A stretch of 36,090 nucleotides of DNA from Acidobacteriaceae bacterium (GTDB lineage: Bacteria; Acidobacteriota; Terriglobia; Terriglobales; Acidobacteriaceae), in NCBI GenBank assembly GCA_003171315.1, contig PMYE01000035.1, positions 1 to 36,090 of the forward strand. The letters run 5' to 3'. The translations under genes were made by a program, and so were the position numbers. Each line of letters starts with the position of its first letter. The first letter of the stretch is position 1. Shown piece after piece: positions 1,645 to 30,721 of this stretch. Below the pieces are notes generated by a model. That model saw only the letters and a list, made by a program, of their open reading frames with translations. It was not told the DNA's origin and did no database searches.

Positions 1645-1646
1645 CT

Positions 1647-5477: not shown

Positions 5478-7079
5478 TCACTCCATCAACGGCGCGAATC
5501 GCTCCTGGAGCACGCGCCGTAGAAACTTGCCGGCGTGGTTCTGCGGCAGATCGCCCGAGTCGAGAATCCAGATGCGCCGTGGCGCCTTGTACGCAGCGAG
5601 ATTGCCGCGGCACCAATTCAGCAGTTCGCCTTCGGTTGCTGAGGAACCCGCATGCAATTCAACCGCGGCCACGGGAACCTCTCCCTTTTCGCGATGCGGC
5701 AGGCCGAACGCGACGGCACGGGCCACGGCAGGATGGGCCAGAATCGCCTCTTCCAGCTCGCGCACGTAGACTGAGTAGCCCCCCGACTTGATTACATCTT
5801 TCGCGCGCCCCACCAGCCGGATAAACCCCAGGCGATTGCGCACAGCCAGGTCGCCCGTACGCAACCAGCCGTCGCCAGTCAAAATCCTCTGGGCATCTCC
5901 TTCGTCTTTCCAATAATGCGGGGTCAGCCCGCGGCGACGAATCTGGCACTCGCCGGCTACGCCCGCAGGCACGCTGCGCCCGTTCTCATCGACAACACGA
6001 ATGCGATATGGCGGAACGGGAATGCAAAGGTTCCCGCTCCCGGGCAGCAGCGGCAACTCAACGCCCATCATAGCCAGGCCGCCCAGTTCCACCATGCCAT
6101 AGCCATTCAGAAGAACAGGGGGAACACGCAAACCACCCGGCAGCCGGAACAGGGCTCCGAAACGCCGCAGCCGCTGCCACACCTCCGAGGGAAGATGGTC
6201 GCTGGCCGAGAGCCACACCCGCACGCTTGCCAGACGGGCAGGTGCGGGATTGGCATTCATGAGCCGCGCAAACATCGCGGGTACGCCGACAAAGGCGGTA
6301 ATGCGAAAGCGCTCGGCAAGATCCAGCGCAGCTTCTACATCAAAGCGGTCCAGAAAGCAGCCGCGGATGCCGGCCATCAGACCATAGAGAGCAATACTCA
6401 CGGCCATGATGTGCGACCAGGGCAGCGCCACCAGCGCCAGGTCCCGCGGTCCCAGAAATACTCCCGAGAGCACCGTCGACGCGCGCGCCCCCAGCAGTGC
6501 GTTGCTCGATAAGGCTGCGCCCTTGGGGAATCCGCTGGTGCCGGAGGTGTGAAAGATGGCAACCGTCGCGGCCGGATCGATCGTTGCCGGCGGGAACTTC
6601 TCATGAACCTCAGAAACGCGCTGGAAGAGCTCGAGCGTCTCCTTCTCATTGTCGGCTTGTATCCAGGTGCGCACATTCAGAGCCTCGCGGCTTCCGATGC
6701 TGCGTTCGAATACCGTTCTGTCTGTAACCAGAATCTCCGTTCCGCTATCGGCCAGAATCCGGCGCACCTCGACAAGGGAGAGCATCGGATTGAGTGGCAC
6801 CGCAATGCCTCCGGCGCGGATAATGGCCAGAAACCAATGAAAGCATCTCCGGTCATTGGTGCGATAAATCGCTACCGGCTGGCCCGGGCGAAGCGCGACG
6901 GTCCGCCGCAGAAACGCATCGATCGAGCAGATTTTTGCGTGGAGATCGGCAAGGTGAAACGGCCCGGCGTCATCGACATGAACTTCGCAATTTCCCTTCC
7001 GCCGAACCAGTTCATCCACAAGGTTAGCCACCGTGACGCCGCGGTCGCGCGCGAGTTGATAGCGGAGGAGAATGCTCAT
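5478..7079 (-). CDS. AMP-forming acyl-CoA synthetase/ligase
   Basis: 533 aa; P-loop HTSGTSGFPKGA; YGMVELGG; GWLRTGDLAVRN; C-terminal catalytic Lys region PQNHAGKFLRRVL. Confidence 0.92.
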   Translation of the reverse strand: MSILLRYQLARDRGVTVANLVDELVRRKGNCEVHVDDAGPFHLADLHAKICSIDAFLRRTVALRPGQPVAIYRTNDRRCFHWFLAIIRAGGIAVPLNPMLSLVEVRRILADSGTEILVTDRTVFERSIGSREALNVRTWIQADNEKETLELFQRVSEVHEKFPPATIDPAATVAIFHTSGTSGFPKGAALSSNALLGARASTVLSGVFLGPRDLALVALPWSHIMAVSIALYGLMAGIRGCFLDRFDVEAALDLAERFRITAFVGVPAMFARLMNANPAPARLASVRVWLSASDHLPSEVWQRLRRFGALFRLPGGLRVPPVLLNGYGMVELGGLAMMGVELPLLPGSGNLCIPVPPYRIRVVDENGRSVPAGVAGECQIRRRGLTPHYWKDEGDAQRILTGDGWLRTGDLAVRNRLGFIRLVGRAKDVIKSGGYSVYVRELEEAILAHPAVARAVAFGLPHREKGEVPVAAVELHAGSSATEGELLNWCRGNLAAYKAPRRIWILDSGDLPQNHAGKFLRRVLQERFAPLME

Positions 7080-8183
7080 AGCGCAGAAACGGGTTTGCGG
7101 CCCCAGTCGCTGGCCACACAGTAATGGAAAAGCCGGTCGAGATAATCGAGTACAGGCGGAGGGCTTACTCCGGCGGGTTTCAAAAGACGTTCGGCATTGC
7201 TGGTGTCAAACTGCATGCGCATGGTGAAGTAGTCCCGGTAGGCCCGGCCATCGCGCAACACACGGCGCTTACGCCCCCATAAAGTGGCAAACAGAAGGGG
7301 CCGCAGCACGGCGAAGAAGAATTTCGGATCGACATAACGCGGCTCAAGTCCATTGAAGTACTGCATGGCTCGATGAGCAACCTTGTCGATGGTTGCGCTG
7401 CCGCGGGGTCCGGCGCAGAGGTGCACGGTCGAACTCAATGCGTCCTCGTCAAAGAGCAGCCCGGCGACAGTTTTGGCGACAAAATCGACCGGCACGATGT
7501 CCAAAACCGCATCGGGATAGCCGGGCACGGTTCGCCAAAGCCGCCGCGCGTAGATCTTGAGCGGCCAATACATCATCTTGAAGCTGGAGGTGACGCCGGT
7601 GCGCGAATCTCCCACGATGATACTGGGGCGCAGAATCACGCCGGGGATAGAGCCAAGACGCGAACGCACCAGGGCTTCCGCCTCGGCTTTGGTTTGTTCA
7701 TAGGTATTGCGATAGGTTTGGCCGACGTTCAGCTCGTCCTCGCGCACCAGGTCCGAACGCTCGCCGGCAACGTAGGCAGTACCCACATAGGCGAAGCTTC
7801 GAAGTTGGCGCGCGCCGCCCGCAAAATCGAGAATATGCCGGGTACCCTCCACGTTGATGCTGCGTGCCTCGTCGAGCGAGTGATCGAACCGCACCGTGGC
7901 GGCGGAGTGGACCACGCGGGTGGTTTCCGCCTGGAGGCGGCGGTAGCGCTCTGTCTCTAGCCCGCAGCCAGGCTGGCTCACGTCTCCAGACAAAACGTGA
8001 ACGCGCGAGCGGTCCGCGGAAGGGATAAAGGAATCGGCGCGCTGTCGGCCCGATTGTCCCCCTCGATCGCGGATGAGGAGCGCCAGTGTTGCATTTGGCC
8101 GCTGCTCCAGTAGTTCGCGTACCAATTGCATTCCGAGGAAGCCGGTGGCGCCAGTGACCAGGATGTGTTCTTCGCTGTTCATT
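7076..8183 (-). CDS. NAD(P)-dependent extended SDR / thioester reductase-like (NAD_binding_4-like)
   Basis: MNSEEHILVTGATGFLGMQLVRELLEQ (Rossmann GxxGxxG), YEQTK (YxxxK), ILRPSIIVGDSRTG. 4-bp overlap with the ligase. Start chosen at 8183; the track ORF extends to 8269. Confidence 0.85.
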
Positions 8184-8488
8184 TCGAAAGCGGCCTCTGC
8201 CCCCAGGCCACACGCTACCGGTGAAAGACGACCGGCGGAAGCCGCTGAGGCGGGTAGGTCTCGCGTCATTATAGCCCGTGTGCCGCGGCGATCTGGCTGG
8301 TTGTAGTCAGTCCGCGTTGAGTCCGTCTCGCCCAGCCGCGCCGTGGCGTCGCGGAGATTTTCCAGTCAGCGTAACTCTCCTTCTGCTCGATGGCGGCGTT
8401 ATGGGTTTTCTTCTCTGTTTCCGGCCCCAGAACTTCCTTTGGCCCCAAAACCTCACCGCCGCCAATCCCAAAGGCAGGCCGTCCGGTG

Positions 8489-9198: not shown

Positions 9199-11616
9199 CT
9201 ACTCTTCGCGCAGAAGGACGAGCGGATCGGCGGCCAGCGCCCGGCGCGCCGGAATCCACGAGGCCACCAAGCCGAGCAAAAGCATGGTTGTGACCACCCC
9301 GCCGAGAACCATCGGATCCTTTGGCGTGGCCTGATAGACGATAAACGACAGGAGGCGCGTGGCCAAAACGCCCAGCGCCAGTCCCGCGGCCGAGCCGATG
9401 GTCAGCAGGCGGAAGGCGCGGCCGAGCGAAGCGCGCAGGACTTCCCGCTTGCTGGCACCGAGCGCGACACGGATTCCCAGCTCGCGCAGCCGCCGGCTAA
9501 CCACGTAGGAGGCCATGCCGAAGACGCCCGTCACCGCGAGCATCGCGCCGAGCAGGCCGAGGATCCCCAAGGCTACTGTCGCGATATGCGGGGCGAATAG
9601 CGCGGTATCCATCGCTCCGGTCCACGTCTCTGTCTTGAGAGGCAGGCTGGAATCCAGGCCGTGCAAAGTGCGCTCCAGCGCCGCCGTCATCTCCGGGGGA
9701 TCGCGCCTGGTCCGCACCACCAGCGACATGTTGCTTGACTGATGCTGCTGGAAGGAAAAGAACATTGCGGGCTTTTGATCTTCGGTCAGCGTCCGGTATT
9801 TGCCGTCTTCGACCACGCCGACGACGATAGCCCGGTTGCCGCCCGAGAATTTGAAATGTCCGCCGATCGCTTTGCCGACCGATCCGAAGACCTTGATCGC
9901 GAACTGCCGGTTCACCAGAGTTGCGATCGGGGCGTTCTTGTCGTCATCGAGCCTCAGATCCCTGCCCGCCAAAAGCCGCGTTCCGGCCGCGTCGATGTAA
10001 CCCGGCGAGACGGTGTAGTTCATCGCATCGGCGGCATAGTTGGTGGGCCGGAAATCGGTCGTAGTGTCGGTGTAGACGTAGGAGTCACCCGCGGCGAGCC
10101 CCAGCGGAAACTGGTCGACAAGCCCAACGGAGGACACGCCCGGGATGGCCGCCGCCGCGCTCAACATGCGCCGCTGCATCTCGGGCACGCGGTCACCCGT
10201 GTAGCCGGCCATGTGCAGATCGGTTTCGACGAGCAGGGCATTCTGCGGCTGGAACCCGAAGTTGCTGTGGAGAGATCGCGCCAGTCCCCGTACGGCGACC
10301 AGCGACGAGGTGACCAGCACGGCGCAAATCGCGATCTGCGTTACCAGCAGCACGTCGCGCAGGGTAAACCGCCTGCCTCCCCCGGTGCCGCTCATTCCTG
10401 TGCGAATCACCTGCCACGGATCGGCACGCATGACCTGGCGGACCGGGACCATTCCAAAAAGCAGACCACTGACGAGCGCCAGCAGCAGCGCCACGCCATA
10501 GGTGCGCGCGTCAGGATTCACCGGCACATTGATGGGGATATTGGGAATCGGCTGCCAGGCGCTGAGGCCGTGCAGGATCGCCACGCCGCCAGCGAGCCCG
10601 ATGGCTCCTCCGGCCAGAGAGAGCAGCAATGCCTCGGTGAGCAGTTGGCGCAGAATCAGAACGCGCCGCGAACCCAGCGCCAGACGCAGCGCCACTTCCT
10701 TGGCGCGATCGGCGGCGCGCGCCGCAAACAGGCTTCCCAGATTCGCGCAGGCGGCGAGCAGAATGAGCCCTGCCAGCAGCATTAACCCGGTCATGAATGC
10801 TCTCGCCGGGCCGCCCAGCATGTCGCCGATCAGTCCTGGACGAGCCAGGGTGAATTTGATCCCCTCGTCATCGGCCGGATAGGCCTTTGCCAGCCCCGCG
10901 CCGATTGCGTTGAGGTCGGCGGCTGCCTCATCCGGGGTTACGCCCGGCTTCAGCCGACCGAGCACGAAGGGCGAATGATTGCCGCGCGACTGGAGCGAGT
11001 TGCTGCCCTGCACGACCGGCTCTTCGACAATCGGAATCCACAACGCCGGCGAGAGAAACAGCTCCGTGCCGCGGAACTCCGGCGGCGCCACGCCGATGAT
11101 GGTGAATGGGTGCTTGTTGATCTCGACCATCCGCCCCACGACGCCGCGGTCGCCCTGGAAATGACTGTTCCAGTAGGCATAGCTCAGGACGACATAGGGA
11201 GCGCTGTCGAAGCCTTTCTCATCGGAAGCGTGGAAAAAACGCCCCAGATAAGGCTGTATGCCGAGCGCGTCGAAGTAGTTGCCGCTCGCCAGGTAGGGCC
11301 ACGCCGTCGAGGGATTCCCGCCGTTGTCCACCCCTACGGCGCCCAGGATCAGCACCGCCGTCAGGCTCTCGAAGCTCCGATTCCGGTCGCGCAGATCGAG
11401 ATAGTCGGGGTACGACTGCGAGGGAGACCGGAAGTACTGAATCTGGTAGAGGTTCTGCGCATTCGGCACGTTCACCGGGCGCAGCACGAGCGCGTTCAGA
11501 ACGCTGAATACGACGGCATTCGCGCCAATTCCCAGCGCCAATGTAACGATGGCCGTCAGGGTAAAGCCCGGCGATTTTGCCAATTGCCGAATTGCGAACT
11601 TCAGATCGTTGAGCAT
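9199..11616 (-). CDS. ABC permease, MacB-like ADOP family (acidobacterial duplicated orphan permease)
   Basis: 805 aa; MLNDLKFAIRQLAKSPGFTLTAIVTLALGIGANAVVFSVLNALVLRPV; two FtsX domains; C-terminal SWIPARRALAADPLVLLREE. SD-like AGGTGA just upstream. Confidence 0.94.
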   Translation of the reverse strand: MLNDLKFAIRQLAKSPGFTLTAIVTLALGIGANAVVFSVLNALVLRPVNVPNAQNLYQIQYFRSPSQSYPDYLDLRDRNRSFESLTAVLILGAVGVDNGGNPSTAWPYLASGNYFDALGIQPYLGRFFHASDEKGFDSAPYVVLSYAYWNSHFQGDRGVVGRMVEINKHPFTIIGVAPPEFRGTELFLSPALWIPIVEEPVVQGSNSLQSRGNHSPFVLGRLKPGVTPDEAAADLNAIGAGLAKAYPADDEGIKFTLARPGLIGDMLGGPARAFMTGLMLLAGLILLAACANLGSLFAARAADRAKEVALRLALGSRRVLILRQLLTEALLLSLAGGAIGLAGGVAILHGLSAWQPIPNIPINVPVNPDARTYGVALLLALVSGLLFGMVPVRQVMRADPWQVIRTGMSGTGGGRRFTLRDVLLVTQIAICAVLVTSSLVAVRGLARSLHSNFGFQPQNALLVETDLHMAGYTGDRVPEMQRRMLSAAAAIPGVSSVGLVDQFPLGLAAGDSYVYTDTTTDFRPTNYAADAMNYTVSPGYIDAAGTRLLAGRDLRLDDDKNAPIATLVNRQFAIKVFGSVGKAIGGHFKFSGGNRAIVVGVVEDGKYRTLTEDQKPAMFFSFQQHQSSNMSLVVRTRRDPPEMTAALERTLHGLDSSLPLKTETWTGAMDTALFAPHIATVALGILGLLGAMLAVTGVFGMASYVVSRRLRELGIRVALGASKREVLRASLGRAFRLLTIGSAAGLALGVLATRLLSFIVYQATPKDPMVLGGVVTTMLLLGLVASWIPARRALAADPLVLLREE

Positions 11617-11656
11617 TTGTCACCTAGTTGTACGCAGAATCTTCGTCCTCTGTTCC

Positions 11657-11673
11657 CGCATGTGGAAGGCCAC
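11657..11673 (-). promoter_or_regulatory. Candidate sigma54 -24/-12 promoter upstream of the 9199-11616 permease
   Basis: Minus strand GTGGCCTTCCACATGCG: GG-N10-GC spacing intact, about 40 nt upstream of ATG 11616. Confidence 0.4.
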
Positions 11674-11823
11674 ACTGGCCGTTTGAAAACAAAGGGATTA
11701 CCGAACAGAAGCAGGTTTACGCTGTCCGCTTACGGCAATCCGTGTCCGGAATCGAACAGGTTGGCACGCTCGGCGATTTCGAATCGGCGACGACGATTTC
11801 CCGCGATATGACACAGCAGGCCG

Positions 11824-13215
11824 TCAAGCCCGCGGGTTCACGTCTCGCGATTCCGGCTCGGCTCTCCGTCCGGGCGCCGGCCCCATGGGCAAGCGGATCG
11901 ATGCCCGCGCGCCCTCGCCGCTTTCGCGGTTGACGAGCGAGATCTCGCCGCCGTGAGCGCGGGCGATCTGTTGGGCCAGGGCAAGACCGATGCCGCTTCC
12001 GGTCGATTTCGTCGTATAAAACGGGACAAACAGGTTCTCTGGATTGGCGATGCCCAGGCCCCGGTCTTCGATGACGATCTCCACGCCGGCGCCGTTGACC
12101 TTCCACGTGACGCACACGGGTTTTGCCCCGTTGGCAATCGATGCGTCGGCGGCGTTGGCGAGCAGGTTGATCAGCATCTGCTCGAGCTGGTCCGAATCGG
12201 CGTTGAGGATGGCCGTCGGGCCAGGAACGAGCTCGACGGGAATGCGCTGGTCCAGATGCACGACGCGCTCGATGAGTGGCGCGAGCTGGACTTCGCGGAA
12301 CCGCGGCGGGGGCAATTGCGCAAGCTGCCGGTACGATTGTACGAAGCGGTGCAGCGCGTCGGCGCGGCTTTCGACGACGCCCAATCCGCGGCGGAAATCG
12401 CTCGTCAAGGCTTCGTCGCCGTGCAAGGTTTCGACCCGCGCAAGCAGGCTGCCGGCAATGGATTTGATCGGCGCAAGCGAATTCGAGAGCTCATGGCCCA
12501 GCACGCGAATCAGGCGCATCCAGGCGGCCTTTTCCTCGTCCTGGAGTGGAACGCTGACGTCAGCCAGAACAAGCAGCGTGTGGGGCGCTCCATCCTGGCG
12601 GAAGACGACTTTGCGCAGCAGCCAGCGCACGGGCGCGGCGCCGAAGGAACGGATGGACTGATCTGGCGCGCCGAGCCAGTCATCGAGGCGCAACTCATTT
12701 GCGGAATGTCCAATACATCGCGCATAAGGGCGATCGAGCAGTTTGAGGCCGGCATTGTTGACCAGTTGCAAGCGGTTCTCACGATCGAAGGCAAAAAGGG
12801 GCGCGTGCATCACCTCAAGGATGCGCGCCAGCAGCGCGGTTGCCTCAAGTGAGCGCACGCGCTGCTTTTGCAACAGATCGGCGAGCGCGTTGACCTCCGC
12901 AGCCAGTTCCCCGAGTGCATCGGGGGATGAAGCGCCGCGCGCGCGAAAGGAATAGTCGCCTTCACGAAGCGAGGAAACGACGTTGGAAAGTGTTTGCAGC
13001 GGGCGGATAAAACCGTCTACAAGGGCGGAGGCGACGAGGGCAAGATAAATGAGCAGACACGCCCCGAACAGAAGAGCAGGTACGACGTCGAGCTGCCGCT
13101 GATAAAAGAAGACACAGAGAAAAATCAGCGCAGGCAAACCGAGCAGGAAGGAATAAAGCCACGCCCTGCGAATGGCCCGGCGCGCGGGCCGCGGCGATCT
13201 TGTTTCATAGGCCAT
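11824..13215 (-). CDS. Sensor histidine kinase (HAMP, PAS-like, HisKA/HATPase; NtrY-like)
   Basis: Two N-terminal TM segments; H-box VLGHELSNSLAPIKSIAGSL; N-box INLLANAADASI; G-box VIEDRGLGIANPENLFVPFYTTKSTGSGIGLALAQQIARAHGG. 11-bp overlap with the response regulator. Confidence 0.92.
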   Translation of the reverse strand: MAYETRSPRPARRAIRRAWLYSFLLGLPALIFLCVFFYQRQLDVVPALLFGACLLIYLALVASALVDGFIRPLQTLSNVVSSLREGDYSFRARGASSPDALGELAAEVNALADLLQKQRVRSLEATALLARILEVMHAPLFAFDRENRLQLVNNAGLKLLDRPYARCIGHSANELRLDDWLGAPDQSIRSFGAAPVRWLLRKVVFRQDGAPHTLLVLADVSVPLQDEEKAAWMRLIRVLGHELSNSLAPIKSIAGSLLARVETLHGDEALTSDFRRGLGVVESRADALHRFVQSYRQLAQLPPPRFREVQLAPLIERVVHLDQRIPVELVPGPTAILNADSDQLEQMLINLLANAADASIANGAKPVCVTWKVNGAGVEIVIEDRGLGIANPENLFVPFYTTKSTGSGIGLALAQQIARAHGGEISLVNRESGEGARASIRLPMGPAPGRRAEPESRDVNPRA

Positions 13216-14644
13216 ATTTTTCCATGCGCCGGTAGAGCGCGGCGCGGCTTAGCCCCAGGGATTCCGCGGCTTGAGAAATGTTGCCGTCGCAGCGGCGCAG
13301 CACTTTGCGGATCAGCGTGGCCTCCATTTCGTCGATGCTCATATTGTCAAGCGAAAGCGCCGCCGGCCGCGCTCCCGAGATGGAGAGATTGGCCGGCTCG
13401 ATCTCTTCACCGCCGCACAGAAGCAAAGCGCGCTCGATGCTGTGCTCCAGCTCGCGCACATTGCCCGGCCAGGAATACTGCATCATCTGCTGCATGGCAG
13501 GCGCCGAGAAGCCGTTCACCTGCTTGCGGTAGCGGGTACGAAGCCGGGAAAGAAAATGCTGCGCGAGCAGCGGGATGTCCTCGCGCCGGTCGCGTAGCGG
13601 AGGCAGATGGATCTCCACCGTATTGATGCGGAAGAGCAAGTCCTCGCGGAAGTTGCCTGCCTTGGCTTCCTCGTGCAGCAGCGCATTCGTCGCACAGAGA
13701 AGGCGCACGTCGACGCGCCGGGTCTGCGACGATCCCACGCGTTCCAATTCGCCTGTCTCCAGGACGCGCAGAAGTTTGGCTTGCTGGCGCAGTGGCACGT
13801 TAGCAATTTCATCCAGAAAGAGCGTGCCGCCGTTGGCTAATTCGAAACGGCCCACGCGGTCGGCGCGCGCGTCGGTAAACGCGCCCTTCACGTGGCCGAA
13901 GATCTCGCTTTCGAAGGTTCCCTCCGGCAGCCCGCCCGCGTTCACCGTTACCAGCGGCATGCGGGCGCGCGGTGAGGCGGCGTGAAGCAGATGCGCGACG
14001 ATCTCCTTGCCGGTGCCGTGTTCGCCGGTGATGAGAACATTGGCGTCGGAAGGGCCAACCCGCGCGATCAGTTCGAGGACCGGCTGCATCGAGGGAGCGG
14101 AAGCAACAAACTCCGGCATGCCTTCGGCGCGGAGCAGGCGGTTTTCGAGTTCCAGCTGGCGGGCACGGCGCAGCGCCTGGCGCAGCTCGGCGTGAACGCG
14201 GATGAGGGAGAGCAGCCGCTCGTTCTCCCAGGGCTTTTGGATGAAGTCACGCGCGCCGCGCTTGATGCTTTCGACGGCCAGGTCGATGTTGCCCCACGCC
14301 GTCATCACGATCACCGGAAGCCGCGCATCGAACTCCTGGATGCTGGCCAGCAGATCGAGGCCTTCCCGGCCGGAGGTGGTGTCGCGCGTGTAATTCAGGT
14401 CGATCAGCACCACATCGTAGTCGCGCTCGTGCAGCGCCTCCATCAGCAGCTGCGGCAATCGCACGCAGTCCACATCGATCGCCTGCGGCTTGAGCAGCAG
14501 CTCAACTGCCTCCAGAACATGCGGTTGGTCGTCGGCAACCAAAACCCGAATTTTGTCTCGCTTACTCGAGATGGCCCGCCTCCATAGCTCCTGATTTCGG
14601 TTCGAGCGAGGAATACCCGTCGCTGGGGGCCCCGGATTCTGCAT
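13205..14644 (-). CDS. Sigma54-dependent response regulator, NtrC family
   Basis: Receiver IRVLVADDQPHVLEAVELLL...VVLIDLNY; AAA+ Walker A GEHGTGKE; GAFTDA loop; GGTLFLDEI; C-terminal Fis-type HTH GNISQAAESLGLSRAALYRRMEKYGL. Start 14644 is the nearest in-frame ATG and is uncertain. Confidence 0.92.
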   Translation of the reverse strand: MQNPGPPATGIPRSNRNQELWRRAISSKRDKIRVLVADDQPHVLEAVELLLKPQAIDVDCVRLPQLLMEALHERDYDVVLIDLNYTRDTTSGREGLDLLASIQEFDARLPVIVMTAWGNIDLAVESIKRGARDFIQKPWENERLLSLIRVHAELRQALRRARQLELENRLLRAEGMPEFVASAPSMQPVLELIARVGPSDANVLITGEHGTGKEIVAHLLHAASPRARMPLVTVNAGGLPEGTFESEIFGHVKGAFTDARADRVGRFELANGGTLFLDEIANVPLRQQAKLLRVLETGELERVGSSQTRRVDVRLLCATNALLHEEAKAGNFREDLLFRINTVEIHLPPLRDRREDIPLLAQHFLSRLRTRYRKQVNGFSAPAMQQMMQYSWPGNVRELEHSIERALLLCGGEEIEPANLSISGARPAALSLDNMSIDEMEATLIRKVLRRCDGNISQAAESLGLSRAALYRRMEKYGL

Positions 14645-14831
14645 CAGCGATGGAGGTACCGTAGTCTTTGAGGATCGAACCGGTGGTGCGCCGCACTTCG
14701 ACGCGAGCCTTCTTATATGCGGCCTCATCGGCAGCCAGTGCGGACTCCGATTGAGCCAGATCGTTCTCTGCCGAAAACGTCTGTCGGTTCGAACCTGCGC
14801 TCAGCTTCAGCTTACTCTGCATGATATCCAA
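14562..14831 (-). pseudogene. C-terminal fragment of a TolC-like protein (partial duplicate)
   Basis: KLKLSAGSNRQTFSAENDLAQSESALAADEAAYKKARVEVRRTTGSILKDYGTSIADAESG aligns with QLGAKSSSDTLAAQHDLSIAESLLVAAQTAYEKAKVDIDRASGETLQQTGVSIDDAKMG at the end of the adjacent intact TolC gene. Confidence 0.75.
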
Positions 14832-14902
14832 TGTATGCCGGGCCAGCGCGACTCCTCCATTCGGGATAACCGGGTTGCGCCAAAAACGGATGTTTCATCG
14901 AT

Positions 14903-16969
14903 CTATGGCTCACGCGACACGACTCCCATTTTCGCGTCGTCGATCGAGACACCGGTTTGCTGCAGTGTCTCTCCGGAGGCCCGGTCGATGTCCACCTTCG
15001 CCTTTTCGTAAGCTGTCTGCGCGGCCACAAGAAGGGATTCGGCAATGGACAGATCGTGCTGCGCGGCCAACGTATCGCTACTGGACTTGGCTCCGAGTTG
15101 TTGCTCCTGCTCGGTGACATCGAAGGTATTTTCGGCCAGGTCGCGAGCCTTTGTAGCCGCATCGACGCGAGCCTGCGCCTGCTGCAGCGCGAAGAGCGAG
15201 TTGCGCACGTCGAAGCGAATGCTCTTCTTTTGCTCTTCGAAGGTGATCTGGCGCTGCCTGAATTCCAGCGAGGCTCGAAACTGATCGGCCTTGGCAACGC
15301 GGTTGCGAAGGTTGATCGACAGATTCATTCCGAACTGATATTCCGGCGAAGAGTAATTGAATGTGTTCTCGAACATGCTGCCGAACCCCGTGGGGAGATC
15401 GGATGCGCACTCGGCGGCGCCCAGGTCGCAGTTCGGGTTTCTCGGTCCCGCAATGCCCGCTCCTGCGTAGAAGCCATAGACGTTTAGCGTGGGCAACAGC
15501 TCGCTCCGGATCGATTTGAGACTCATCTCCGCCACCTGCATTGCGAGCTCGTCCTGGGTGACGTCGGGGCGGTTCTTCTCGGCTTCGGCGATGAGATCGT
15601 CAATCGATTTGGAGGCGTTGTCATCGGGCGGTCCGGCGCGATCGAGGGGGATGACCGGCATCTCGTCGATGGCCGCATTATCGGTCTTGGTAATGGCGTT
15701 TTTTATGAGCAGTTCGTTCAAGCGCAGAGTGGCGCGCGAAACGGTGAGGTCGCCTTCGCTGGTCGCCACGTCCGTTTCGTCCTTGTTGACCTGCAAAGCT
15801 GGAATGGCCTGCAGTTGGAGCTGCTTCTGGTCATCTTGAAGTGTTCGCTGTGCAAATGCGAGGGAGTGCTCCTTGACCTGTTCGTCCTGATAGGCGTTCA
15901 CAAGGTCCCAATAAATATTCTCGACCTGCGTGACCGTCGCAATCACCTGCGCGCGAAAGGCCAGGTCGGTGATCTGGAGATTCTTCTTCGCGATGTGCAT
16001 GTAGCGCTCGTTGGTGGAGATTCCGAAACCGGCGAGGAGCTGCTGCGTGAGGATCACCTGGAAATTCGAGTAGAGCGAAGGGTTGATAGCTTCGTAGGGG
16101 CTGTTATTTGCGTAGCGCTGCCCCTCGTAATTGACGGTCAAGCCCGTTCCGAACGGAAAGTTCTGGGTGTAATTTGCCAGGGCTTCGATAGTGTTCTCCT
16201 TAAACACGGGAACGCCATAGCTAAAGGCGTTGCCCTCCTGGGCGGCGATGTGATCCGTGAAGCCCTTAAAGTTCAGAAAGGGATCGAAGGAAGCGACCGC
16301 GGTCCCGGCGCCGAGCGTCGAGGTCACGATGCCGCCTGCGCCGGCAGCAGCCGACCCGGATGTGGCGCCCCCGGAGCCGGAACTTCCACCAGCGAAGCCC
16401 CCCTGCGTAGACGACTGCACGATCCCGGTACTGACCCCGTTCACGCTGCCGCCGGCCTTGGTGCGCGCGTAGTCGGTTTGCGCAATGGGGAAGTTATAGC
16501 GGAAGTAGGCGAGATCGAGGTTGTTTTCGATAGCCAGGGCGATGGCATCGTGCAGCGAAATGTACAGTTTCCCGTCGCGGATAAGGTTCTCCAGGCGCGG
16601 CGAATTGGTGAGATCCAGCGGGGGCGCCTCGCTGGGTCTGTAAGGTGCGAGCGGGTTATGCGAGTGCGGAAGATCCACGTGAAATGGCCGCTGGGGGGTA
16701 ATCGCCTGCTGCTGTGTCTGCCGCATCTGCTGCGCCAGCGTAGGGGGCGGCGCGGCAGCGCCGTTCGCCGCGGGCGTCGGGGCCTCCGGCGCCGGCGTCG
16801 CCTGTGAGTTTTGCGGCGCAGATTGCGCTTGCGGTGGCGCGGCCGCGAAGGCCAGGTTCACTTGCAAAAGCAAAATCGCTGCAACGGCTTGAATACGCAA
16901 AACAGCCGATTTGGAGGAGCGGGAATTCATGGGTGTCTTACCAATAGATCGGGTAGGATTGTCGCTCAC
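14903..16969 (-). CDS. TolC-family outer membrane efflux protein
   Basis: 688 aa with signal peptide (from ATG 16930: MNSRSSKSAVLRIQAVAAILLLQVNLAFAA); long coiled-coil repeats typical of OEP. The GTG at 16969 overlaps the ATPase stop; ATG 16930 is an alternative start. Confidence 0.9.
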   Translation of the reverse strand: MSDNPTRSIGKTPMNSRSSKSAVLRIQAVAAILLLQVNLAFAAAPPQAQSAPQNSQATPAPEAPTPAANGAAAPPPTLAQQMRQTQQQAITPQRPFHVDLPHSHNPLAPYRPSEAPPLDLTNSPRLENLIRDGKLYISLHDAIALAIENNLDLAYFRYNFPIAQTDYARTKAGGSVNGVSTGIVQSSTQGGFAGGSSGSGGATSGSAAAGAGGIVTSTLGAGTAVASFDPFLNFKGFTDHIAAQEGNAFSYGVPVFKENTIEALANYTQNFPFGTGLTVNYEGQRYANNSPYEAINPSLYSNFQVILTQQLLAGFGISTNERYMHIAKKNLQITDLAFRAQVIATVTQVENIYWDLVNAYQDEQVKEHSLAFAQRTLQDDQKQLQLQAIPALQVNKDETDVATSEGDLTVSRATLRLNELLIKNAITKTDNAAIDEMPVIPLDRAGPPDDNASKSIDDLIAEAEKNRPDVTQDELAMQVAEMSLKSIRSELLPTLNVYGFYAGAGIAGPRNPNCDLGAAECASDLPTGFGSMFENTFNYSSPEYQFGMNLSINLRNRVAKADQFRASLEFRQRQITFEEQKKSIRFDVRNSLFALQQAQARVDAATKARDLAENTFDVTEQEQQLGAKSSSDTLAAQHDLSIAESLLVAAQTAYEKAKVDIDRASGETLQQTGVSIDDAKMGVVSREP

Positions 16970-17664
16970 CTGGCCTCCGTTGCAGCAGGCTGCAAGGCCT
17001 CGTCGCGCGTCATCCAGCCGTCGCCCAATTCGACTATCCGTCTTCCGTAGCGCGCGTTCGCTTCCGAATGTGTCACTTGCACAATGGTCGTGCCGGAGCG
17101 GTTGAGTTCGCAGAAAAGCTGCATGATCTCGCGGGCCTGCGTGGAGTGCAGGTTTCCGGTGGGCTCATCGGCCAGCAGCAGCGCGGGCGCGTGGACCACG
17201 GCGCGAGCGATGCCCACCAATTGCTGCTGGCCGCCGGAGAGTTGGTTGGGATACAGATCCTTCTTGGCGACGATCTGAAAGCGGTCAAGGATGTCGGCGA
17301 CCATTCCCGCGCGATCCTTTGCCGGCATGTTCTTGTACGAGAGCGGCAGGTCGATGTTTTCCGCCACCGTAAGATCGTCGAGCAGGTGATAGCTCTGGAA
17401 GACCATGCCGATGCTCTGGCGGGCCAGGTCGGCGCGCTGCTTGCGGTTCAGCGTGTGAACCGCGGTGTCGCCGAACCAATACTCACCCTTCCAGCCGTCG
17501 TCGAGCAGGGCCAGTATGTTCAGCAGCGACGACTTGCCTGCGCCCGAGGGGCCCATCACGGTGACAAACTCGCCCTCTTTGATGGTGAGACCAATTCGGC
17601 GCAACACCCATTCTTCGGTGTGTCCGTTCTTGTAACTGCGTTCCACGTTTTTCAGTTCGATCAT
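16966..17664 (-). CDS. ABC transporter ATP-binding protein, MacB/LolD-like
   Basis: MIELKNVERSYKNGHTEEWVLRRIGLTIKEGEFVTVMGPSGAGKSSLLNIL; signature LSGGQQQLVGIARAV; LLADEPTGNLHS; VTHSE. Confidence 0.93.
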   Translation of the reverse strand: MIELKNVERSYKNGHTEEWVLRRIGLTIKEGEFVTVMGPSGAGKSSLLNILALLDDGWKGEYWFGDTAVHTLNRKQRADLARQSIGMVFQSYHLLDDLTVAENIDLPLSYKNMPAKDRAGMVADILDRFQIVAKKDLYPNQLSGGQQQLVGIARAVVHAPALLLADEPTGNLHSTQAREIMQLFCELNRSGTTIVQVTHSEANARYGRRIVELGDGWMTRDEALQPAATEAR

Positions 17665-17671
17665 GATTGAG

Positions 17672-20143
17672 TTACTCCGATCTGAGTGCCTGCATGGGAT
17701 CAATAGATGCGGCGCGGCGCGCGGGCAGGAGGGCGGCGCAGCCGGAGACGACGATCATGGCCGCTACGGCCAGAACGAAGCTCAGCGGATCAAGCGGCGA
17801 CATCTGGTAGAGCATCGACTTGAGCGGACGCACGGCGAACAGCGTGAGCGGAATGCCCACGGCAAGACCCGCGATCAGCACCCACAGACTTTCGCGCATC
17901 ACCATGGCCAGCACCTGCCTGCGGCTCGCGCCCAGGGCCATGCGCACACCGATTTCTGTCGTGCGCCGGCTCACGCGGAACGAGTGCGCGCCGTAGAGGC
18001 CGGTTGCCACCAGTAGCGCCGCCAGCACGCCGAAGAATCCGCCCATGGCGGCAAACATGCGCTGCTGCACATACGACTCATCGAACTGCTGCTGCTGCGT
18101 CATCGGCTTCTCAATGGGCACATTGGGATAGAGCGCGGCCACCGTTTTGCGCATCGCCGGAATCATCGCCGCCGCGTCGCCACGCACACGCACCTCGATG
18201 TGCAAGGTACCAGCCAGTGAAGGAAACTGCATCGCAGCGTAGTATGCCATCGGGATTGGCTCCTCATCCACCGAGCGGTACTTGCTGTCGCGTGCCACGC
18301 CGACAATCGTATAACGAAGCTTCCTCTGGCCAATCTGATGTCCCATTGGATTGGTGTTGGGCAGCAGCTTCTTTACGAATGTCTCGTTGACCACCGCAAC
18401 CAGTTGCGTGTCCCGCGCATCGGACTCGGCAATATCGCGGCCAGCAAGAATTGGAACGCCCATCGTATGAAAGAAACCCGCGCCAACAGCGTTCGTGCGC
18501 AGCCGTACGCCTTCTTTCTCGACACCATCCAGCGCCATGCCGCTGTTGCTGGACCATCCCGTGCCAGGACGATTCGCCACCATGGAAACCGACTCCACGC
18601 CCGGCTCCTGACGCAGCCGGTCGAGCAGCGTGCGAAAGAAGACATGAGGCTCGACCTGCGCCGGCGGCGCGACGCCGAAGACCAGCAGGCCCTCTGTCTG
18701 CATTCCCAGATTCTGCGCCGCATAATTGCGCAATGTGCGCAACAGCAGGCTGGCAGCCATCAGTAGCACCAGGCAGATAGCCATCTGCCCCGCCAGCACG
18801 ATGCGCCCGCCCAAAACGCGTCTGCGGTTTGTAGTCGCGTTTGCCGCCGTCGCGCGCAGCACTCCTGCCACCGGCGCGTGAATCGCGCTCCACAAGGGCA
18901 CAAGCCCAAAAAATAGCGCGGCCAGCGCAGAGATGAATAGCGTAAACAGAAGCACACTGCGATCCGGACTGAGGCCCGTATCGATCTCCGACCACGATGC
19001 CAGCATTCGCGTGGCCGCGAGCGCAAAGAGCCAGCCAAGCGCCGCACCAATGGTTACCAGCAATAGGCTCTCACAGAGCAACTGGCGGAAGATGGCTGCC
19101 CGTCCGGCCCCTATGGCGAGTCGGAGGCTGAACTCGCGCTGCCGCACCGTGTTGCGCGCCTGCACCATCATGGCCACGTTGGTGCAGGCAATCAAAAGCA
19201 CCAGCCCGACCAAGTCCATGAGAATCCGCAGCGGCTCGCGGTACTGCTCGTTATATCCGCCGACGCCGCGCGCGGGAACGAAGTCCAAGAGCGGCTTCCA
19301 CTGCTTTGGATCGATCAAGCCGACGCCTTGCTTGGCAGCCTCGCCGAATGTGCCGGCAAGCGCCTGCTGCGCCTGCATCAGCGTAACGCCGGGACGCAGC
19401 CGCGCCATCATGCGCAGACACCACCATTTTGGGGAACCGTAGAGCGTGTCGTATTCGGCGGGCGCGCCCCAGGCGTTCAATTCCGGCCGATTCTGCAAGG
19501 GAATCCAGAAGTCGGTTGCGGTGGCCGGTTCGATGCCCTTAAATCCGTGGGCCGCCACGCCCACCACTGTCATGGGGATGCCTTTGATGTAGAGAGTCTG
19601 GCCCACCACGTTCGGATCGCGCGCATAACTTCGCGTCCAGTAGTCGTAACTCAGAACTACCGTCGCTGTGTGCTCCTTTTCGTCTTGCGCGGTGAATCCG
19701 CGACCGCGCTCGATGCGCACGCCCAAGCCTGAGAAGAAGTTGCCGCTGACCTCTTCGCCCTCGGCCTCCTCCGGAAGTTCGCCGTGACGCACCGCAATGT
19801 TGCCGATGCTGAGGGGAACATAGGCGATCAACTCCTCGAAGACATCATGGCGCTGGCGCAGCGCCTCGAAGACCGCTTCAGAAAACGAAGAGTCCCCGTT
19901 GCCCGTGTTGCCGGCCCCAGGCGGCTGGCTTTCGTCGTTGGCCATGCGCACGTAAGAGAGTCCTTCCGCGCGGCTGACGGGAAGCAACTGCATGAGGATC
20001 GCGTTCATCACGCTGAAGACGGCGGTATTGGCGCCGATGCCCAGCGCCAGCATCAGCACAACCGTCATTGTGAATCCGGGCGACTTGCGCAACTGGCGCA
20101 GCGCGTACCGAAGGTCACGGAGCAAATTCTGGAAAAACATCAC
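17672..20143 (-). CDS. ABC permease, MacB-like ADOP family
   Basis: 823 aa; LLRDLRYALRQLRKSPGFTMTVVLMLALGIGANTAVFSVMNAILMQLLPV; C-terminal ALLPARRAASIDPMQALRSE; 4-bp overlap with the upstream ATPase gene. Confidence 0.94.
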   Translation of the reverse strand: MMFFQNLLRDLRYALRQLRKSPGFTMTVVLMLALGIGANTAVFSVMNAILMQLLPVSRAEGLSYVRMANDESQPPGAGNTGNGDSSFSEAVFEALRQRHDVFEELIAYVPLSIGNIAVRHGELPEEAEGEEVSGNFFSGLGVRIERGRGFTAQDEKEHTATVVLSYDYWTRSYARDPNVVGQTLYIKGIPMTVVGVAAHGFKGIEPATATDFWIPLQNRPELNAWGAPAEYDTLYGSPKWWCLRMMARLRPGVTLMQAQQALAGTFGEAAKQGVGLIDPKQWKPLLDFVPARGVGGYNEQYREPLRILMDLVGLVLLIACTNVAMMVQARNTVRQREFSLRLAIGAGRAAIFRQLLCESLLLVTIGAALGWLFALAATRMLASWSEIDTGLSPDRSVLLFTLFISALAALFFGLVPLWSAIHAPVAGVLRATAANATTNRRRVLGGRIVLAGQMAICLVLLMAASLLLRTLRNYAAQNLGMQTEGLLVFGVAPPAQVEPHVFFRTLLDRLRQEPGVESVSMVANRPGTGWSSNSGMALDGVEKEGVRLRTNAVGAGFFHTMGVPILAGRDIAESDARDTQLVAVVNETFVKKLLPNTNPMGHQIGQRKLRYTIVGVARDSKYRSVDEEPIPMAYYAAMQFPSLAGTLHIEVRVRGDAAAMIPAMRKTVAALYPNVPIEKPMTQQQQFDESYVQQRMFAAMGGFFGVLAALLVATGLYGAHSFRVSRRTTEIGVRMALGASRRQVLAMVMRESLWVLIAGLAVGIPLTLFAVRPLKSMLYQMSPLDPLSFVLAVAAMIVVSGCAALLPARRAASIDPMQALRSE

Positions 20144-20865
20144 TCCGCCTCCACTTCCTCTTCGAGCTTTTTCAGTTCGGTCTCGGAGACGACCTTTCCG
20201 TCGAAGAGATGCACCTCGCGCTGGGCGTGCTTGGCGAAGCGGGGGTCGTGCGTGACCATGCAGATGGTCGAGCCCTCGCGGTGCAAATCGGCCAATAGGT
20301 GCATCACGGCTTCGCCGTTTTTCGAGTCCAGGTTGCCGGTGGGCTCGTCGGCCAGCAGGATCGCGGGCGAGCCGGCCAGCGCGCGCGCCACAGCGACGCG
20401 CTGCTGCTGGCCGCCGCTAAGTTGCGCCGGGTAGTGCTTCCTGCGGTGCGCCATGTTCACGCGCTCCAGGGCTTCCTTGGCGCGCTTTTTGCGCTCCGTC
20501 GAAGCCATGCCGGAGCGGTAAGTCAGCGGCAGTTCAACATTCTCCTCGACGGTAAGATCGCCGATCAGATTGAAGCTCTGGAAGATGAAGCCGATCTCCT
20601 GGTTGCGGATGCGCGAGCGCTCGCCGAAGCTGAGGCTCTCCGCGGGCTTGCCGTTGAGCCGGTACTTGCCCGCCGTGGGCGTATCGAGCAGGCCCATGAT
20701 GGAGAGCAGCGTGGATTTGCCGCAGCCGGACGGGCCGGAGATGGCCACATACTCGCCGCGCGAGATGGTCAGGTAAATGCCGGAGAGCGCGTGCGTCTCT
20801 ACTTCGTCGGTGTAAAAGACCTTGGTCAGGTCCTCGATTTCAATTAGCGTGCCGTTCGATGCCAT
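20140..20865 (-). CDS. ABC transporter ATP-binding protein, MacB/LolD-like
   Basis: MASNGTLIEIEDLTKVFYTDEVETHALSGIYLTISRGEYVAISGPSGCGKSTLLSIMGLLD; LSGGQQQRVAVARALAGSPAILLADEPTGNLDS; VTHD. Confidence 0.95.
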   Translation of the reverse strand: MASNGTLIEIEDLTKVFYTDEVETHALSGIYLTISRGEYVAISGPSGCGKSTLLSIMGLLDTPTAGKYRLNGKPAESLSFGERSRIRNQEIGFIFQSFNLIGDLTVEENVELPLTYRSGMASTERKKRAKEALERVNMAHRRKHYPAQLSGGQQQRVAVARALAGSPAILLADEPTGNLDSKNGEAVMHLLADLHREGSTICMVTHDPRFAKHAQREVHLFDGKVVSETELKKLEEEVEAE

Positions 20866-20924
20866 GATCTGCCTTTCCTTGTTTTGCGATTCTGATTCCT
20901 GATCTCTGATGCTTGATCCCAGTG

Positions 20925-22193
20925 CTATTCCAGCCGAATGCGGTCCACGTTGTCCCACCGCGACATATCGGAAAGGATCACCGTGTCGCCTTCCTTCAAG
21001 CCCTCGATCACTTGAATCTCGTTCACCGAGGCGCGGCCGACTTTGACCGGCACACGCGTGGCGCCTTTGCCATCGGGATCGAGCTTGAACAGGCTCAGCA
21101 CGGAGTTCTCGTTGCCCAGCGCCGGCCGGCCCACGTAGAGCACGTCCGCCATGCGCTCCAGGTCGATGGTGCCGTCAACGCTCAACTGCGGAACCGCGCC
21201 CGGCGGCAACGCTCCATCAAGTTCTACGTCTACCGTGCGTGTTCCGTTCACTACCGAAGGATCGATTCGCGTGACGTGACCGGGAATCACGCCGTTGTGG
21301 GTGTCGATCGAGGCCGGTTGGCCGATCTGGATGTCGCGGGCCTGCGTCTCGGCAATCTGCAGGGCGGCTTTCAGCTTGTCGCGCTGGATGACCTCGGCCA
21401 CACTGGTTCCCGCCGTCACGTGTTCGCCCACTTGCACCGGGGTGGCCAGCGGCGCCAGCGTGCCGGCGATGGTGGAGCGAACTTCGAGCGCCTGCGCCTG
21501 CTTCTCGTAAAAATCGAGCAATGCCCGGGCCTGGTCGATTTTGGTCTTCTGCGAGGCAAGCTCAACTTCGATCGCCTTCTGGTTCACGCCGAGCTGCTGC
21601 TGGCTGAGCTGGTGCTGTGCGGTTAACTGGTCGGCGGTGCTCTGCGACTTCTGGTAGGTGAGGCCGGAGATGACGCCCAGGTCGTAAAGCGCCTTGTCGG
21701 TCTGGGCTTGTAACTGATCCTGTGTATAGTTGGCATTCACCTGCGCCGCAGCGGTCTTCTTGTCCATCAAAGTGCTTTCGAGCTGAGCCTGGAGACTTTT
21801 GTAGTCGGCCTGTGCGGCCTTGAGCGCCAATTGAGCGTTGAGCACTTCCTGCTGGAGTTGCGGGTCGGCCAGATCCATGATGATGGTGTTCGGAGTGACC
21901 TGGGCGCCGGGCAATACGCGGATGCGAATGACAGTCGCGTCGGTCTGCACGGGAATCAGCTCGATCGAGTCCTCGCGCGGAACTAAACTACCCGTTGACG
22001 CGCGTACCTGGCGGACCATCGGTCCGCGCTTGACCGTGTCGGTCCAGATGGTCGAGCGGTCGACCGGGGGCGCGGCCGGCTTTAGCCTCGCCACAGCCAG
22101 CCCCGCAACCGTTAACATCACCACCGCAACGCCAACCCATGCGTAAAGCTGGCGCTTCTTTTTCTGTTTAATGTCAGGCCGCGCGATATCCAT
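20925..22193 (-). CDS. HlyD/MacA-type periplasmic adaptor subunit
   Basis: Single N-terminal TM; LVPREDSIELIPVQTDATVIRIRVLPGAQVTPNTIIMDLADPQLQ lipoyl half-motif; coiled coil; C-terminal YVGRPALGNENSVLSLFKLDPDGKGATRVPVKVGRASVNEIQVIEGLKEGDTVILSD. Confidence 0.92.
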   Translation of the reverse strand: MDIARPDIKQKKKRQLYAWVGVAVVMLTVAGLAVARLKPAAPPVDRSTIWTDTVKRGPMVRQVRASTGSLVPREDSIELIPVQTDATVIRIRVLPGAQVTPNTIIMDLADPQLQQEVLNAQLALKAAQADYKSLQAQLESTLMDKKTAAAQVNANYTQDQLQAQTDKALYDLGVISGLTYQKSQSTADQLTAQHQLSQQQLGVNQKAIEVELASQKTKIDQARALLDFYEKQAQALEVRSTIAGTLAPLATPVQVGEHVTAGTSVAEVIQRDKLKAALQIAETQARDIQIGQPASIDTHNGVIPGHVTRIDPSVVNGTRTVDVELDGALPPGAVPQLSVDGTIDLERMADVLYVGRPALGNENSVLSLFKLDPDGKGATRVPVKVGRASVNEIQVIEGLKEGDTVILSDMSRWDNVDRIRLE

Positions 22194-22207
22194 ACGCTAG
22201 AAATCTA

Positions 22208-22224
22208 TGCACTTGGCCTGCCAA
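22208..22224 (-). promoter_or_regulatory. Candidate sigma54 -24/-12 promoter upstream of the adaptor gene
   Basis: Minus strand TTGGCAGGCCAAGTGCA compared with consensus YTGGCACGrNNNTTGCW: TTGGCA and TGCA elements with exact GG-N10-GC spacing. Confidence 0.5.
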
Positions 22225-23050: not shown

Positions 23051-23215
23051 CAACCTGCTACATTTGTTCGTGGCGCAAAGACGACTCAACTCCTCAAGGT
23101 GCATTTACAATGGCGAGGATAGTTTTGAGTTCGCACACCTGTGTCGCGAATAGATCGGAACCGGCATGACCGCGGACCAGACCAAACGGCAATCATCGCA
23201 TCAAGAGGTGTCAAA
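23051..23215 (+). repeat. Conserved leader of copy 1 (pairs with 24798-24963)
   Basis: CAACCTGCTACATTTG...CTCAACTCCTCAA...GCATTTACAATGGCGAGGAT...TTTTGAGTTCGCACACCTGTGTCGCGAAT...ATCATCGCATCAAGAGGTGTCAAA is repeated at about +1748. Confidence 0.85.
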
Positions 23216-24706
23216 GTGAGAATCGGAACCTTCCGCCATTGTTCATTGTCGATCAGACTTGCAGCGCTTATATCGCTCATTTACCCCGGCCTGGTTGCGG
23301 CAAAGGGAGGGGAAAGCGCGGTGCACGCTCAATCTTCCGGCGCAACCTTGCCCGCTTACCCGCTCAAGCTGAGCGCGAACCACCGCTATCTTGTGGACCG
23401 GAAGAATAGGCCGTTTCTGATCGTGGGAGATACTCCGCAGGGGCTCATGTGCAGGCTGAGCGAGGCAGATGCCGAGAAGTACTTTGCCGACCGCCAGGCG
23501 CATGGTTTCAACACGGCCGGGTGGATCGATGTAGCCTGCGCGGGCAGGGACTTTCCTGACATCAAGAGCGGCGCCACCCCAGACGGCATTTTCCCGTTCA
23601 CCGGATTCTTGGCAGGCGGGACGGATCTAGCGCATTACGATCTCACCAAACCCAACGAGGTTTATTTCGCGCGCCTCGATCGCATGATTGAAATTGCGGC
23701 AAAACACGGTATTTTGGTTTTCATCGATCCGGCGGAGACCGCTGGTTGGATGCCAACCCTGCGCAACAACGGCCTCGCCGCGGCATACGCTTACGGACAA
23801 TATCTTGGCCGGCGATATAAGAAGTATGCGAACGTAGGCTGGATCAGCGGCTGCGACTTCAACAACTGGCGGGTTCCCACGGACGACGCATTAGCACTAG
23901 CAGTAGCCAAAGGGATCCAATCGATTGCCCCGGAGCAGCTTCAGAGTGTTGAGCTCAACTACCAGATGAGTTCTTCCCTCGACGATCAATCCTGGGCGTC
24001 AATTATTTCACTCAACTCCACCTATGCCTACGCGGCGACCTACATTCAGATGTTGCACAGCTACAATCAAACGCCGGTGATGCCCGACTATCTGGTGGAG
24101 GCGCACTACGATCTGGAGAACGTCGGCGAGCCAAACGACTACGGAACGCCCGAGGTGCTGCGGCGCCAGGAATACTGGACCATGCTGAGCGGCGGGGTGG
24201 GGCAAGTTTATGGAAATCACTACACCTGGGATCTTCCACATGGTTGGGATTCCTATATTGATACGCTCGGCGTATCGCAGCTGGAGATATGGAAACACTT
24301 CTTCTCCTCATTGCCTTGGCAGGATCTTGTTCCCGACCAGCAGCACACAACGCTTACAGACGGCTTCGGAACTTTTGGCAGCGACCAGATTCTGCTCGAT
24401 TCGAGCACGCTTGCGACCAACAATCCCGTCCGTGTGAGCCAGAGCAACTATGCGACGGCCGCCAGGACAGCTGACGGATCGTACGTGGTCGTTTATATGC
24501 CAACCGCGCGCACGGTCACTGTCAATATGAGTAGCCTGAAAGGCCCCGCTACTGCCAAGTGGTTTGACCCAACGAATGGAACCTACCACGCGGTCCAGGG
24601 TGGGCCACTTCCGAACACCGGAACCCGGCAATTCACTCCGCCGGCAAAGAACCGCGCTGGCGACAGCGATTGGGTGCTGCTCATTAATTCATCCAGTCGG
24701 CCATAA
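23216..24706 (+). CDS. DUF4038 / apiosidase-like TIM-barrel protein with C-terminal collagen-binding-like domain (copy 1)
   Basis: GTG 23216 preceded by AAGAGG; secreted; LSANHRYLVDRKNRPFLIVGDTPQGLMCRLSEADAEKYFADRQAHGFNTAGW; C-terminal SYVVVYMPTARTVTVNMSSLKGPATAKWFDPTNGTYHAV. The ORF is open upstream to 23141. Confidence 0.82.
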   Translation: MRIGTFRHCSLSIRLAALISLIYPGLVAAKGGESAVHAQSSGATLPAYPLKLSANHRYLVDRKNRPFLIVGDTPQGLMCRLSEADAEKYFADRQAHGFNTAGWIDVACAGRDFPDIKSGATPDGIFPFTGFLAGGTDLAHYDLTKPNEVYFARLDRMIEIAAKHGILVFIDPAETAGWMPTLRNNGLAAAYAYGQYLGRRYKKYANVGWISGCDFNNWRVPTDDALALAVAKGIQSIAPEQLQSVELNYQMSSSLDDQSWASIISLNSTYAYAATYIQMLHSYNQTPVMPDYLVEAHYDLENVGEPNDYGTPEVLRRQEYWTMLSGGVGQVYGNHYTWDLPHGWDSYIDTLGVSQLEIWKHFFSSLPWQDLVPDQQHTTLTDGFGTFGSDQILLDSSTLATNNPVRVSQSNYATAARTADGSYVVVYMPTARTVTVNMSSLKGPATAKWFDPTNGTYHAVQGGPLPNTGTRQFTPPAKNRAGDSDWVLLINSSSRP

Positions 24707-24750
24707 GGAAGTGGTGGTGATTCTGGCTTATCCTTCTATGCCGGGCGCTC

Positions 24751-24795
24751 GAATCCCTAGGGCGGTCTTATTCCCCGTACGGCGCCCAGATGTTC
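24751..24795 (-). pseudogene. Fossil of the aldehyde dehydrogenase gene 3' end at the duplication junction
   Basis: 24768-24795 TTATTCCCCGTACGGCGCCCAGATGTTC matches 27161-27188 TTATTCTCCGTACGGCGCCCAGATGTTC (27/28), i.e. minus strand NIWAPYGE-stop. GGCGGTCTTA just upstream is also shared (24761-24770 vs 27138-27147). Confidence 0.75.
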
Positions 24796-24797
24796 AT

Positions 24798-29560: not shown

Positions 29561-29590
29561 AGCGTCTCCTTCCGATCCTCTGCTGGACCT

Positions 29591-30631: not shown

Positions 30632-30721
30632 GTTGCTGTCTCCGCAGGAGAACTGAGAAGCCGCTGCAACGAAAAGACCGGCCCCCTCTACTTTCGCAGA
30701 GAAGCCGCGGTTAGAGAACGA

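Follow-up and report, generated by a model that had tools for sequence, protein, structure and literature searches.

An adaptor, two ATPases and an outer-membrane factor as a probable common export module for the duplicated orphan permeases of Acidobacteriota

A 36,090-nucleotide stretch of DNA from a soil bacterium of the Acidobacteriaceae (contig PMYE01000035.1, here called the window) carries on its minus strand, from 22193 to 9199, eight genes that encode a periplasmic adaptor, an ATPase (ATP1), a permease (permease A), a second ATPase (ATP2), an outer-membrane factor (OMF), a response regulator, a histidine kinase and a second permease (permease B). Both permeases belong to the acidobacterial duplicated orphan permease (ADOP) family. 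We believe, with a probability of about 65%, that this locus is a common energising and exit module, or hub, for many MacB-type permeases, and that it operates under its own sigma54 two-component system. In Acidobacteriota and Gemmatimonadota, ADOPs are a large family of paralogues, with 52-55 members over the curated cut-off per genome in two examples, and we know of no energy source or function for them. Our search of the open literature found no paper on ADOP energisation, and the paper on Solibacter paralogues does not use the term 'orphan'. A near-perfect genome-by-genome link to one small locus offers candidate ATPases, a candidate adaptor and, in many lineages, a candidate channel for the whole family. 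If true, export would here be driven by one motor for many permeases, a principle known to us only for energy-coupling factor (ECF) importers, and this would help to explain how the permeases could multiply so freely.

One line of evidence for this reading is the co-occurrence of ADOPs with the hub adaptor. Among 396 Acidobacteriota genomes, ADOPs were counted at E<1e-140 (155 genomes; 143 over the curated cut-off) and the adaptor at a profile E<1e-60 (155 genomes). By these thresholds 154 genomes carry both and 240 carry neither, while one has ADOPs only (G205, which is 87% complete) and one the adaptor only (G314, whose ADOP score is intermediate). The analysis covered sixteen genera of several members each; 14 of them are mixed and free of discordance, one is positive throughout and one contains G205. 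That genera can be mixed and still concordant argues against mere shared ancestry as the cause of the link. The 41 genomes nearest to the window show the pattern as well: three (G006, G011 and G013) have neither ADOPs nor adaptor, and two that are fragmented or 54% complete (G012 and G038) have ADOPs and no adaptor. The corresponding counts for 150 Gemmatimonadota are 70 with both, 69 with neither, 10 with ADOPs only and 1 with the adaptor only.

The hub is also conserved as a unit. Its most diagnostic gene is the adaptor, whose orthologues are 68-88% identical in 20 of 24 same-genus genomes and 43-50% identical in most genomes of the same order and class; the next-best adaptors are far weaker. 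The order adaptor, ATP1, permeases, ATP2, OMF, regulator, kinase is found at all 13 same-genus loci that span the core (window included), with the OMF in place and the regulator orthologue in the same position at every one, and the core order is recognisable across the phylum and in Gemmatimonadota. This arrangement is far from chance. A preliminary description of the window had proposed a search for the order in other Acidobacteria, and would have counted its absence from relatives as a refutation; the order is conserved there.

What varies is the permeases. Within the genus 1 to 6 ADOPs lie between ATP1 and ATP2, over all relatives 0 to 6, and both ATPases stay. Most of these permeases are only about 30% identical to that of the window, compared with 70-90% for most hub genes; within the genus ATP1, ATP2 and the regulator mostly exceed 80%. 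Five sister-family hubs (G027, G028, G029, G031 and G035) have no permease between the ATPases though ADOPs are abundant in their genomes, and a Gemmatimonadales locus (L069, in the 3.8-Mb genome G434) reads adaptor-ATP1-ATP2-regulator-kinase, with no permease between and 52 ADOPs over cut-off in the genome. Permease B is no fixed hub gene: its orthologues are 73-84% identical in most of the genus, adjoin the hub only in G018, G019, G023 and at locus L037, and usually lie elsewhere in the genome. It is thus a neighbour of the hub here and not a conserved component.

These observations bear on the main rival explanation, which is that the locus encodes one or more self-contained exporters. ATP1 and ATP2 would then serve only permeases encoded within the operon or next to it; ATP1 might drive permease A, for example, and ATP2 permease B. 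Orphan ADOPs would have some other role or other partners, and the co-occurrence would arise because ADOPs both originated from the operon and seed it. It is in keeping with this view that ADOPs lie inside the operon in the genus of the window, that the operon has, apart from this, all parts of a tripartite system, and that permease B adjoins it here. Permease-free hubs with two ATPases in ADOP-rich genomes, and a permease number that moves from 0 to 6 without any change in the number of ATPases, are difficult to reconcile with it, as is the usual location of permease B. Because the number of permeases varies independently of the ATPases, we reject the pairing of one ATPase with each permease, and the single closed pump of the preliminary description, in which two ATPases were to be assigned to two permeases, is not supported. 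Self-contained exporters in the broader sense we regard as unlikely, yet as the alternative to be taken most seriously.

A complete genome of the same genus (G002) shows how far the permeases outnumber the hub. It holds 55 ADOPs over cut-off, five of them inside its one hub. Among the 50 outside, 49 have no ATPase-like match within 3.5 kb and so are orphans in the sense of having no ATPase gene nearby, a description that fails inside the hub; the exceptional one has an ATPase-like match 2.7 kb away that is 28% identical. In the stretches of G002 that were read, the sole adaptor match is the hub's own. That the orphans retain the cytoplasmic motifs of the family with no ATPase close by is a further point against self-contained exporters. 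A gene for a PadR-family regulator directly precedes 24 of the 50 orphan ADOPs and none of the five hub ADOPs. Several of the remaining orphans stand further along in tandem arrays, one example being a PadR-headed array of four ADOPs (L164:4001-14401). Elsewhere in G002 (L116:5001-9299) an orphan ADOP is preceded on the same strand by a sigma54-type regulator and a kinase that are 40% and 38% identical to those of the hub, which suggests that further ADOP-linked two-component pairs exist. In the genome of the window itself, an ADOP that is 76% identical to permease A along most of its sequence, and 93% identical over its last 67 residues, is read in two frames (L156:5685-8137); gene conversion and a frameshift are possible.

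The structure predicted for the permeases is compatible with docking on a common motor. Permease A is a fused pair of MacB-type halves, each of which matches MacB by sequence. Its AlphaFold model (pLDDT 83.7) predicts eight membrane helices (4+4) and a pair of periplasmic domains; the best fold match in the Protein Data Bank is Escherichia coli YbbAP, followed by MacB, and structures of LolCDE and BceAB-S were also matched. An ADOP thus appears, from the model, to be a single chain resembling a permease pair of the MacB/YbbP type. Conservation in 54 ADOPs is highest (2.5-2.8 bits) in the parts that face the cytoplasm (N-terminal helix, the two coupling segments and C-terminal tail) and lowest in the periplasmic domains (1.7 bits), a pattern that fits common docking with variable cargo.

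Two further alternatives start from the same fold matches. The hub and ADOPs might traffic envelope lipids or lipoproteins in the manner of Lol or YbbAP rather than export through the outer membrane: the ATPases also match the LolD and YbbA models, YbbAP is the best permease fold, and PMC12646458 describes YbbAP as a system that takes hydrophobic compounds out of the inner membrane. We consider this improbable, given that neither the LolD nor the YbbA model reaches its cut-off and that the operon in the genus of the window includes a dedicated adaptor and OMF, neither of which Lol or YbbAP uses. Orphan ADOPs might instead be envelope sensors or regulators, with the hub merely in the same regulon. 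The BceAB-S structures among the fold matches and the PadR genes ahead of 24 of 50 orphans are what such a role might predict, but both halves of ADOPs keep MacB-like periplasmic domains and conserved coupling segments, and we give this idea very little credence.

The two ATPases, which are 40% identical to each other, differ in a consistent manner. In all 51 loci examined ATP1 has the signature QQQRV and the D-loop NLDS, with its Asp. ATP2 has QQQLV and a D-loop of NLHS (NLHT in one case, and NLQS in two loci, of G074 and G427), never with Asp in the readable orthologues, and the two proteins form separate groups on a tree with support of 100/100. The co-conservation of the pair, and a D-loop change confined to ATP2, suggests a heterodimeric motor. 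The NLHS motif occurs in 92 of the 396 phylum genomes, every one of which is positive for both ADOPs and adaptor. As a universal marker it proved too narrow and was rejected, given the NLQS loci and the hubs that have no ATP2 nearby.

These lines of evidence can be assembled into a mechanism. The analysis itself shows the gene content, the gene order and its conservation, the promoter motif, the co-occurrence, the orphan state of ADOPs, the D-loop change of ATP2 and the predicted ADOP fold; physical sharing, an ATP1/ATP2 heterodimer, the direction of transport, the signal and autoregulation are what we infer. The adaptor, ATP1, ATP2 and outer-membrane channel would make up a common module for type VII (MacB-type) export, and each ADOP would contribute a motorless, fused pair of MacB-like half-permeases. 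ADOPs of the operon and orphan ADOPs alike would dock on the same ATPase pair via their conserved cytoplasmic helices, and their divergent periplasmic domains would select the cargo, much as one EcfAA' motor serves the various S-components of ECF importers. The ATPases would power MacB-like mechanotransmission, and the adaptor and OMF would conduct cargo outward. We favour, a little less firmly than the common module itself, a hub-and-spoke form of export in the ECF fashion, in which one ATPase set, adaptor and channel are common to dozens of dispersed orphan permeases, the permeases (many under PadR regulators) set the cargo, and the sigma54 two-component system sets the capacity of the motor. 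Envelope stress or lipophile export as the biological role is a guess; nothing that points to a substrate was found.

Control by the hub's own regulator is consistent with the promoter evidence. In 41 of 47 distinct regions upstream of adaptor orthologues that are at least 55% identical, a site that agrees with the consensus at 9 or more of 12 positions lies 10-18 bp ahead of the adaptor start, versus 6 of 2000 random windows. At more distant orthologues the site is in the same place in only 2 of 24, and we limit the promoter claim to the closer group (55% identity or more). Across the genus the -24/-12 site lies 12-16 bp from the adaptor ATG. The usual spacing from the -12 element would put the transcription start near this ATG and leave a leader of only a few bases, so the transcript is possibly near-leaderless. 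The genome carries rpoN. A site that matches 10 or more of the 12 positions occurs in the 200 bp upstream of only 4 of 55 ADOPs; we therefore rejected the site as a general ADOP trait and assign the promoter to the hub. A consensus -24/-12 scan allowing two mismatches was dropped as too unspecific, and scans for sigma70 promoters and terminators returned nothing exceeding chance.

The regulator has the make-up of an NtrC-type sigma54 activator, namely a receiver, a Sigma54_activat AAA domain and a Fis-type helix-turn-helix, and a GAFTDA loop can be read by eye. Hydropathy profiles of the kinase orthologues show two membrane helices joined by a short outer loop, and no periplasmic sensor domain. 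For this reason the signal is probably derived from the membrane or the transporter. The kinase would read one of these and, through the regulator, raise hub expression from the -24/-12 promoter.

Several considerations weigh against reading the locus as a common module. Co-occurrence cannot distinguish a motor that is shared from a pair of gene sets that the same lifestyle requires, the score thresholds were chosen once the distributions had been seen, and the genome lists were transcribed by hand. The 10 Gemmatimonadota that have ADOPs and no adaptor match, which are possibly incomplete or diverged, do not follow the pattern. ATP2 is missing beside the hub at L137, L138, L140, L142 and L146 despite the presence of ADOPs and adaptor, and therefore a motor with two ATPases is not universal. 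Stronger conservation of cytoplasmic segments is usual in ATP-binding cassette (ABC) permeases. Finally, 28 and 33 genes per genome are annotated as ADOPs according to a paper on Dyadobacter (Bacteroidota), and our hub counts cover Acidobacteriota and Gemmatimonadota.

The individual features of the locus are collected in Table 1.

Table 1. Promoter site and genes of the locus, in window positions
Feature	Position	Strand	Evidence
-24/-12 (sigma54) promoter site	22208..22223	-	TGGCAGGCCAAGTGCA; 14 bp before adaptor ATG; 1 match, 0.16 expected in window (relaxed pattern)
Periplasmic adaptor (membrane fusion protein, MFP), HlyD/RND_mfp type, 422 aa	20925..22193	-	HlyD_3; domain and curated-model matches
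ATPase 1 (ATP1), MacB/LolD/DarD class	20140..20958	-	Complete Walker A, signature QQQRV, D-loop NLDS
ADOP permease A	17672..20143	-	TIGR03434, 812 bits vs cut-off 622
ATPase 2 (ATP2)	16966..17703	-	Signature QQQLV, D-loop NLHS (Asp replaced)
Outer-membrane factor (OMF), TolC/OEP family, 688 aa	14903..16969	-	Two OEP domains, best E 3.8e-30
NtrC-type sigma54 response regulator	13205..14728	-	Response_reg, Sigma54_activat, Fis-type HTH_8
Histidine kinase	11824..13215	-	HATPase match; HAMP slightly under cut-off; H-box HELSNSLAPI by eye
ADOP permease B	9199..11616	-	TIGR03434, 757 bits vs cut-off 622

The preliminary description had listed these eight genes in this order, and both the list and the order hold. 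Its broader proposal, that the locus encodes a tripartite exporter of the MacB type together with a sigma54 two-component system of its own, is supported, and it was right that this is not the standard MacAB layout. Several gene junctions overlap or abut, with gaps of about 175 bp between OMF and regulator and of 208 bp from kinase to permease B. Both permeases lie above the curated full-length cut-off for ADOPs (TIGR03434), and PF12704 and PF02687, two stretches each, together with an ATPase of the MacB/LolD class, place the system in the type VII ABC (MacB/FtsX) superfamily. The OMF scores under the cut-off of the TolC subfamily model. The N-terminus of the adaptor, MDIARPD, is the consensus among orthologues. 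Translation likely starts at Met33 (20862) in ATP1 and at Met14 (17664) in ATP2, and some 45 N-terminal residues of the regulator may be over-called.

Elsewhere in the window, a second and unrelated pair of the MacB/Lol type lies within 511-5424 (half permease at 511-1644, ATPase at 3318-4043), accompanied by a glycosyltransferase of the macrolide type (1461-2915) and by an alpha/beta hydrolase. An AMP-dependent acyl-CoA ligase and a thioester-reductase-like short-chain dehydrogenase/reductase follow with a 4-base overlap (5478-8269); with the adjacent glycosyltransferase and hydrolase they may form a small lipid or natural-product cluster. Two tandem glycoside hydrolases with apiosidase-like and collagen-binding domains occupy 23141-26451, and 27161-34623 encodes an aldehyde dehydrogenase, DeoC, a PIN-domain protein and a parAB pair.

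Judged by curated models, the locus is neither MacAB, YbbAP nor the darobactin exporter, although it shares features with each. MacAB-TolC is similar in its adaptor, MacB-type permease domains, OMF and tripartite logic, and the locus has both an adaptor and a TolC-family OMF. It differs in that ATPase and permease are separate here, the permease is a fused pair, the two ATPases are distinct, and the locus includes several permeases (proposed to be interchangeable) and sigma54 two-component genes. Scores against the fused-MacB equivalog PRK10535 are 226 bits for ATP1 and 101 and 78 bits for the permeases, compared with 966. E. coli YbbAP(-TesA), the best fold match, shares the fused permease halves, the two periplasmic domains and the separate ATPase. 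The ADOP model has 4+4 helices and is not a ten-helix permease; YbbP has two extra linking helices according to a review (PMC5985334). Furthermore, YbbAP has one type of ATPase and no adaptor or OMF, and the two ATPases of the window reach only 206 and 154 bits against the YbbA equivalog cut-off of 336. The darobactin exporter DarBCDE provides the best model for both ATPases (DarD), with weak matches of DarB and DarC to permease and adaptor, all below the curated equivalog cut-offs (for DarD, 235.8 and 243.5 vs 375 bits). That exporter is tied to a biosynthetic cluster.

By analogy, the locus would work like ECF transporters of the shared-module type (group II), in which one energising module serves many substrate subunits. 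Many such subunits have been proposed to compete for one module (PMC7755397), and PMC4820897 describes the module as including a pair of ATPases (EcfAA'T). ECF systems differ in being importers, in using no adaptor or OMF, and in having membrane subunits unrelated to ADOPs. As for the ADOP family itself, its name (acidobacterial duplicated orphan permease, TIGR03434) implies that there is no partner ATPase, whereas here its members lie between two ATPase genes.

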